Below, piece by piece: positions 5,135-7,861 of a stretch of DNA of 34,515 nt. Origin of the DNA: Mycobacteriales bacterium (GTDB lineage: Bacteria; Actinomycetota; Actinomycetes; BP-191); NCBI GenBank assembly GCA_035714365.1, contig DASTMB010000092.1:1-34515 (forward strand). The letters are read 5' to 3'. The first letter of the stretch is position 1; each line of letters opens with the position of its first letter. The position numbers and the translations under genes are program-made. The notes below the pieces were generated by a model, which was given only the letters and a program-made list of their open reading frames with translations, was not told the DNA's origin and did no database searches.

Positions 5135-5374
5135 TCACCCCCAGCAGTTGTTGAACCGCTCGGCCGGCGGCCGCCCGGACAGGCGCGTGTTCCAGCCGTT
5201 CTCGTCGGTGTAGCCCGGGATGGGGTACTTCAGCCCGAACGGGTTGGGCTGGTCGAAGTCGATGAGGCTCGGGTCCTGGGACGCGTACTCGTCGTCGTGG
5301 ATGGGGCCGAACGACTCGATCGGATCGTCCCACCTCGGGAACCAGCCCTCGCCGCAGATGTACCCGGCGCGCAT
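5135..5374 (-). CDS. Unknown 79-residue protein coupled to the Ntn-hydrolase gene
   Basis: I do not recognise this family. The protein is acidic and aromatic-rich, with repeated Asp/Pro/Gly turns (PRWDDPIESFGPIHDDEY, FDQPNPFGLKYPIPGY). It has one cysteine near each end (C7 and C77), a single lysine (K49) and the C-terminus NNCWG. No signal peptide or membrane segment is visible. Its ATG overlaps the TGA of the upstream gene by one base (TGATG), and a very strong Shine-Dalgarno (GAAGGAGGG on the minus strand, 5383-5391) lies 8 nt before the ATG inside the upstream gene's end. Clean coding composition and this coupling argue for a real protein. It might be an adaptor, substrate or modified peptide for the Ntn-hydrolase-like neighbour. 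That is inference only. Confidence 0.75.
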   Translation of the reverse strand: MRAGYICGEGWFPRWDDPIESFGPIHDDEYASQDPSLIDFDQPNPFGLKYPIPGYTDENGWNTRLSGRPPAERFNNCWG

Positions 5375-6180
5375 CAGTCGTGCCCTCCTTCGGTCTCGCG
5401 GCCGAGGGCACGGCCGAGCAGCGTCATCCCTGCGTGACGGGTGAGCACCGCGACCCCGACCGGTCCGGCGTCCTCTCCTGAGACCAGCCGGTGGTACCCC
5501 GCCGTCGACCCGACAACGTACCGGGCGAACGCCACCGCGTCACCCAGCGGGGTGGCCGCCGTGACGGCGAGCTGCCGCGGTATGCCGAGCATCTCGTCGA
5601 CCGTCGACACCGCCTCGGCCGGCAGCGCCGCCGCCAGCGCGGGCAGCCAGCGCGGGTCGTACCCGCGGAACAGCCGCAGCGCCGGCCCGCTCCGGCCGAA
5701 CGCCGTCCAGCCGCAGGCCGGGCCGCCGAGCTCGAGCTCCGGCAGCGGCCGCGCGCCCGGCGCGAGGTCGACCCGCCACGCCTCGCCGTGCTCGGCACCA
5801 GGCGAGAAGCCGGCGACGAGGAGGCCCGCCGGGTCCACGCCCGGCGGCGGACGCTCCGGCGGCGCCTCCCACGCCAGGTCGACCAGCCGGTCGGCCACCG
5901 AACGCACCGACCACCGCCCGCCCAGCGCCCACTCCGGCCGCGCCGGGTCCTGCCCGGCGAGCCGCCGCCGCAGCTCCGCCACGAGCATCGGCACGGTCGC
6001 CGCGCCCGTCTCGGCCGCGCCCCACGTCACCGCCGCGACGGGCAGCCGGTCGTGCAGCGCGAACACCGTCCGCCCCCGCCGCCCCGCCCGCGCGCGCCCG
6101 TCCGCCGACGCGACCGTCGCCGTCGCGTCGGCGGCCAGCACCAGCCCTTCCCACACCTTCACCAGCACCGCGACCGTCAC
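5374..6180 (-). CDS. Ntn-hydrolase (proteasome beta-like) protein, Thr1 and Asp17 present, Lys33 absent
   Basis: The 268-residue protein starts MTVAVLVKVWEGLVLAAD. Removal of the initiator Met would expose Thr1, and the Asp then falls exactly at position 17, as in proteasome beta subunits and HslV. A WGAAETGAA segment matches the position of the GGAAD-like turn after the first sheet. The only lysine in the whole protein is K7, so the usual catalytic Lys33 is missing. Arginines (R33, R34, R36 in processed numbering) occupy that region. There is no propeptide and no signal peptide. Start: GTG at 6178-6180, with GAGAGGGG as ribosome site. It is coupled by a one-base overlap to the 79-residue gene. 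It may be a divergent threonine hydrolase or a non-peptidase relative. The substrate is unknown. Confidence 0.7.
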   Translation of the reverse strand: MTVAVLVKVWEGLVLAADATATVASADGRARAGRRGRTVFALHDRLPVAAVTWGAAETGAATVPMLVAELRRRLAGQDPARPEWALGGRWSVRSVADRLVDLAWEAPPERPPPGVDPAGLLVAGFSPGAEHGEAWRVDLAPGARPLPELELGGPACGWTAFGRSGPALRLFRGYDPRWLPALAAALPAEAVSTVDEMLGIPRQLAVTAATPLGDAVAFARYVVGSTAGYHRLVSGEDAGPVGVAVLTRHAGMTLLGRALGRETEGGHD

Positions 6181-6252
6181 CAGCCGTCCCCTCTCGCTCG
6201 GGGACCGACGCTAGGGACGCCGCGCCCGCCGTAGGAGGGCCGACGAACGATC

Positions 6253-7129: not shown

Positions 7130-7861
7130 GTGGCCCAGCTCGACTTCGCCCGCGAGTGGTTCTCGTTCCCGAACCCGGACGACCCGGACGAGGAGCTCCG
7201 CTGCGACCTGACGTGGCTCATGTCGTCGTGGACCTGCATCTTCGGCACCGGCTGCCACGGCATCGAGCGCACCCGGCCCGACGACGGCTGCTGCACGCAC
7301 GGCGCGTTCTTCTCGGACAAGGACGACGAACGCCGCGTCCGCGCGATGGCGCGGGAGCTGACGGCGGAGGACTGGCAGCACCGCGCGACGGGCCGCCGGT
7401 TCGGCCTGACGGAGGTCGAGGACGGGCGGACGAAGACGCGGGTGCACGACGGCGCCTGCGTGTTCCTCAACCGGCCCGGCTTCCCGGGCGGCGCGGGCTG
7501 CGCGCTGCACCGGATGGCGTGGCGGACGGGGCGGCACCCGCTGGAGACGAAGCCGGACGTGTGCTGGCAGCTCCCGATCCTGCGGACGCAGGAGTGGGTG
7601 GACCGGCTGGACGACACGAAGGTGCTCGTGACGACGATCGGCGAGTTCGACCGGCGCGGCTGGGGCGAGGGCGGCCACGACCTCGACTGGTACTGCACCG
7701 GGTCGCCGGAGGCGCACGTCGGCACCGTGCTGCTCTACGAGTCGTACGCGCCGGAGCTCGCCGCGATGATGGGCGAGGCGGCGTACGCCGTCCTCAAGGC
7801 GCACTGCGACGCCCGCCGCGCGGCCGGTCTGGTCGCGCGCCACCCGGCCTCCCTCCGGTAA
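7130..7861 (+). CDS. Conserved cysteine-rich actinobacterial protein (Rv0495c-like)
   Basis: The 243-residue protein matches, as I recall it, the conserved mycobacterial protein Rv0495c in nearly every signature block: [82 protein letters not shown] and [12 protein letters not shown]. About nine cysteines plus conserved histidines (CxxxxCH, CCxH, CxLH, CTGxxxAH) suggest a metal or iron-sulfur site, as in YkgJ-type zinc/iron chelating proteins. No function is established to my knowledge. It is cytosolic, with no signal peptide. GTG start, with TAGGCT six bases upstream (leaderless). Downstream on the same strand is a membrane-anchored propeller gene. Confidence 0.87.

Follow-up and report, generated by a model that had tools for sequence, protein, structure and literature searches.

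The product of the larger of two overlapping genes in the window (the whole stretch of 34,515 nucleotides analysed here) is a derived member of a known superfamily, the proteasome-like proteins, rather than a new class of catalyst. Judging from the residues it has lost, the protein is probably a pseudoenzyme. A small gene coupled to the large one is a property of the hydrolase family and not of the window alone. Our preferred explanation, to which we give about an even chance, is a domesticated phage-cargo pair that would now act as a binding pseudoenzyme and its partner.

The gene pair

Both open reading frames lie on the minus strand, at the coordinates given in the initial annotation. The one-base TGATG overlap and the good Shine-Dalgarno site described there were also found. 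The features are as follows.

6188..6195, minus strand: Shine-Dalgarno-like GAGAGGGG, read in front of the hydrolase GTG
5374..6180, minus strand: proteasome-fold Ntn-hydrolase-like protein, 268 aa, GTG start at 6180, stop at 5374
6177-6175 and 6129-6127, minus strand: codons of Thr1 and Asp17 of the large gene, read from the sequence
6067..6069, minus strand: ACG codon of Thr38 (Met counted), the Lys33 column, which holds Lys in 21 of 21 relatives
5383..5391, minus strand: Shine-Dalgarno GAAGGAGGG of the small gene, within the hydrolase gene, 8 nt before the ATG
5372..5376, minus strand: TGATG stop/start overlap (TGA 5376-5374 and ATG 5374-5372, one base in common)
5135..5374, minus strand: small partner protein, 79 aa, acidic, ATG at 5374, stop at 5135, no relatives found

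The overlap at the start of the small gene is predicted to give translational coupling. An open frame of 79 codons is by itself not significant (P ~0.24 at local composition). Codon use, however, identifies it as a genuine coding sequence, with a GC3 of 0.97 and a log-odds of 0.39 in frame versus -1.06 and -1.34 in the other two frames. Both genes are intact, and their codon use resembles that of their neighbours.

The 79-aa product is acidic (pI 4.3) with a cysteine near each end, as had been described, and its structure predicted alone is uninformative (pLDDT 47). The claim that it belongs to no known family was borne out: no match was found in Pfam, NCBIfam, PADLOC or the PDB, the best PHROGs match (E 0.48) is at chance level, and none of the collections searched holds a relative. 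Matches in genomes of the class (E 0.005 to 0.1) and on one plasmid (E 0.8) are scattered and short, and were treated as chance.

Fold and ancestry of the large protein

The AF2 model of the large protein alone, obtained from a 16-sequence alignment, has a mean pLDDT of 82.6 and the proteasome beta fold rather than a different one, in agreement with the Ntn fold initially proposed. Foldseek matches it to proteasome beta with an E-value of 4e-8. At E<=1e-3 the model matches 476 PDB chains, and each of the best 50 is a proteasome subunit.

A profile made from 15 relatives, with the window protein left out, matches that protein over nearly its full length at E 7e-52. In the PDB, the relatives' profile matches nothing but proteasome subunits at E<1, none of them significant singly (best 0.043). 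As a single query sequence, the large protein had no match in NCBIfam, the PDB or Pfam (PF00227 included, up to E 10), and a PHROGs search with either window protein gave chance-level matches only. Its core fold and sequence homology place the large protein in the proteasome-like superfamily, in the evolutionary sense of Fuchs et al. 2021, and its relatives also belong under the superfamily surveyed there. An ordinary proteasome beta gene is present on a different contig of the genome, so the pair does lie outside the standard proteasome locus, as first stated.

Loss of the catalytic lysine

The window protein has Thr at position 2, which becomes residue 1 once Met is counted off (Met removal itself being predicted), and Asp at residue 17, as originally read. 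It was aligned with 21 relatives from Actinomycetota, Bacillota, Acidobacteriota, Chloroflexota, archaea and phages. All of these have T or S at the first of these positions, and residue 17 is Asp in 16 and Glu in 5. The nucleophile and the acid covary, as Thr1 with Asp17 (16 sequences) or Ser1 with Glu17 (5 sequences). The active-site pair is thus kept across homologues in one of two forms, and the proposed Thr1/Asp17 assignment holds. Gly54 (Met counted) is also an invariant column and is kept in the window; its location within the TWG strand motif led us to equate it with the Gly47 oxyanion position.

Lys33, in contrast, is present in all 21 relatives and replaced by Thr solely in the window protein, which confirms its reported absence. 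That absence had been deduced from K7 being the only lysine of the 268-aa protein. The count is correct, yet it says little by itself, since proteins of this GC-rich genome are generally poor in lysine (the adjoining methyltransferase also has one lysine, in 242 aa); the aligned column is what counts. Lys33 (Lys38, Met counted) is one of four changed columns among the 16 that are invariant in the relatives, the others being Ser19, Gly238 and Lys258 (Met counted). An acidic residue at 242 (Met counted) is also replaced, by Gly. The lost Lys258 is part of a C-terminal signature, as are the lost glycine and acidic residue.

In the tree, the window protein falls inside an actinobacterial clade bearing Thr1/Asp17/Lys33 (98/96), on the longest branch (2.26 versus a median of 0.32), so its exact place is unsure. 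Because it nests in this Lys33-bearing clade, the loss of Lys33 is derived. The initial idea of an unusual hydrolase therefore calls for revision: the loss is private to the window protein and not a family trait. In proteasome beta5, changing Lys33 to Ala lowers activity by ~83% even with free Thr1, and Arg33 inactivates the yeast subunit (PMC4792962). The window protein is probably catalytically impaired, and the pattern of losses suggests a pseudoenzyme more than an unusual hydrolase. Against this stands the retention of Thr1, Asp17 and Gly47, residues that would be dispensable in a pure pseudoenzyme.

Partner genes in the relatives

In nearly all actinobacterial, Bacillota and phage relatives read, a gene of 44-64 aa overlaps the hydrolase gene or directly follows it, and two partner families are conserved. 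The first comprises basic proteins of 48-63 aa that share the core S[VI]F.S[GA]GQT[KF][QK]...RP (GVF in G714); it occurs in Nocardia, Rhodococcus, M. simiae and genome G714. Its genes start within the hydrolase stop, through the TGATG of the window in relative L079 and through ATGA in the others. Genome G1113 has the same partner protein with one core change (GQI for GQT). On the actinophage contigs L117 and L123 a related partner lies directly behind the hydrolase; these were found by position, after the profile of the actinobacterial partners had given no confirmed match in a scan of viral contigs. The second family, with a core of about Q.GSG..YS, directly follows the hydrolase in Bacillota relatives and phages.

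Close pairs of partners have a dN/dS of ~0.05-0.3, i.e., they are under purifying selection, and a motif of ~17 residues is conserved in an otherwise variable sequence. The co-occurrence initially suggested as a check was found for the relatives' partner family: the same four of ~150 Nocardia genomes hold both hydrolase and partner. A fifth Nocardia match to the partner (20 residues, E 9e-4) lies inside a 343-codon frame and was taken as chance. Each host genome has one partner copy, and a search of these genomes for further copies of the partner motif, as possible other substrates, gave chance-level matches only. Small open reading frames overlapping the hydrolase in M. wolinskyi and Nocardioides fit neither family, and that of the Acidobacteriota locus was joined to neither by pairwise shuffles, the only comparison made for it.

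The small gene of the window overlaps the hydrolase stop as in the relatives' cassettes, and its product is a partner by position and coupling, not by sequence. Neither shuffles nor HMMs revealed similarity between the 79-mer and the relatives' partners, and both core motifs (SGGQTKQ..RP and Q.GSG..YS) are missing from it. An 'RP' motif common to both was ruled out by shuffling (p 0.48-1.0). Hence, of the two-component unit first proposed, the coupled small gene and its position are retained by homologues, but the sequence of the window partner is not theirs. Given this lack of detectable similarity, a shared origin of the hydrolase-79-mer pair is not established.

These partners bear on the strongest rival explanation: the window protein would be an active, specialised hydrolase or ligase with the small protein as its dedicated substrate, adjacent Arg or water replacing Lys33 in a logic like that of connectase. 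The adjacent Arg (residue 37, Met counted) might partly replace the lysine, and the K33A proteasome retains some activity (PMC4792962). The kept active-site residues and the single-copy dedicated partner with its conserved motif, about as long as that bound by connectase (PMC11745163), also agree with this explanation. Yet every relative aligned has Lys33, the window protein lacks three more residues that are otherwise invariant, an arginine at position 33 inactivates the proteasome (PMC4792962), and the 79-mer does not have the relatives' motif. We thus consider an active enzyme unlikely.

Distribution and genomic context

The relatives are rare and scattered. They were found in 6 of 296 genomes of the phylum sample (the window's own genome counted), in 7 of 401 genomes in the family of the Mycolicibacterium relative, and in 4 of 150 in the genus of G817 (Nocardia colli sequence included). 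One species-level scan yielded 14 loci, extending to Bacillota, Acidobacteriota, Chloroflexota and archaea, and several IMG/VR contigs also carry relatives. The window pair is absent from both congeneric genomes examined.

Several of the relatives' cassettes have a prophage setting. Tape-measure, capsid or HNH genes lie no more than a few kilobases from the cassettes of Rhodococcus, M. simiae, M. wolinskyi and G714, and the cassettes on viral contigs lie behind endolysin/holin genes or beside a run of integrase, holin and endolysin genes. Such a position is a usual one for phage cargo genes. Two Nocardia copies read have neighbours without obvious phage character. The window copy lies between a methyltransferase gene and a xylose-isomerase-like (TIM-barrel) gene, and no phage gene is among the neighbours examined. 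The G714 cassette has an abortive-infection-like gene, Abi_2, at a distance of ~2 kb (L109:10588-11568).

In congener G001 the site of the window cassette holds an unrelated gene (L075:7438-8703), which encodes a secreted-looking protein of 421 aa with Asp-rich repeats and no Pfam match. In congener G002 a similar secreted-looking product is encoded next to the isomerase-like gene, at a contig end. A 243-aa cysteine-containing protein (window 7130-7861, plus strand; no Pfam match) adjoins the xylose-isomerase-like gene and is kept in both congeners.

At L038, L041, L114 and L115, on rhizobial plasmids, multiubiquitin-domain genes and genes for ThiF (E1-like) are found at ~1-2 kb from proteasome-like genes of ~410 aa, a neighbourhood that occurs in two different gene orders. 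It is possible that these loci are a bacterial ubiquitin-proteasome-type neighbourhood.

The patchy distribution, the overlapping genes and the carriage by prophages beside integrase and lysis genes, along with the Abi_2 gene near one copy, would also fit a putative toxin-antitoxin-like or phage-defence pair, with the proteasome-fold protein as the component that harms or guards the cell and the small one as its restraint. However, PADLOC recognises neither the window proteins nor the actinobacterial ones, the gene of the large protein comes first, which is not the commonest order of toxin-antitoxin genes, and the window copy has no Lys33; this explanation is improbable. A decaying, functionless gene beside an unrelated small gene would account for the long branch, the lost invariant residues and the absence from both congeners, but is similarly improbable given the intact 268-codon frame, the neighbour-like codon use, the good confidence of the predicted core fold, the well-placed Shine-Dalgarno sites and the preserved overlap.

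Interpretation

A domesticated phage-cargo pair remains the explanation we prefer. In the family, an enzyme with Thr1-Asp17-Lys33 would be produced alongside a single very small partner dedicated to it, whose gene overlaps or adjoins its own, and the partner most likely binds in the active-site cleft through a short linear motif, as substrate or inhibitor. The large protein of the window would be a fast-evolving descendant of such a prophage-carried proteasome-like Ntn protein, a phage origin that we infer for this copy. In its lineage the pair would have settled amid housekeeping genes. The protein lost Lys33 and the other conserved residues, and the partner was presumably either replaced or diverged past recognition. 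The protein would now probably bind its 79-aa partner while carrying out scarcely any peptide-bond chemistry, or none.

More broadly, we tentatively raise a reading held with much less confidence, namely an undescribed two-component system of bacteria and phages. Its proteasome-fold enzyme would process or ligate one dedicated tiny protein through a short motif, by a logic that parallels connectase or Pup in a phage-borne form, and the window copy would be a branch that gave up the chemistry of Lys33 and exchanged its partner. Proteasome homologs gain a testable interaction, and perhaps a substrate, from a tiny dedicated partner that is conserved beside the hydrolase and carried by prophages; the window copy, which has no Lys33, offers a natural contrast on whether catalysis is needed at all.

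Comparison with known systems

The superfamily itself is known: Fuchs, Alva and Lupas (2021) described 22 new groups of proteasome homologs, e.g., PMI, and reported no genomic context hinting at function (PMC8665760). The window protein shares with that family the beta core fold, Thr1/Asp17/Gly47, the lack of a propeptide and carriage by bacteria and phages. It differs in having no Lys33 and in its small coupled partner gene, which is unreported in PMC8665760; the dedicated coupled partner is what is described here. With 20S proteasome beta and HslV (PF00227) the window protein shares the fold, Thr1, Asp17 and Gly47, whereas it has no PF00227 match, Lys33, propeptide or adjoining alpha-subunit gene.

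The phage family phrog_5990 (427-aa proteins) is matched by L003, L044 and the rhizobial relative L038, while its match to the much shorter window protein is weak (E 0.31).

Connectase, an archaeal proteasome-like protein ligase, has a proteasome-like fold as well, although it does not have helices H1/H2, both of which the window model appears to have, and similarity of sequence is not established. It is nevertheless a precedent for a substrate recognised via a linear motif, as it binds a recognition motif of ~20 residues (PMC11745163), near the length of the relatives' partner motif.
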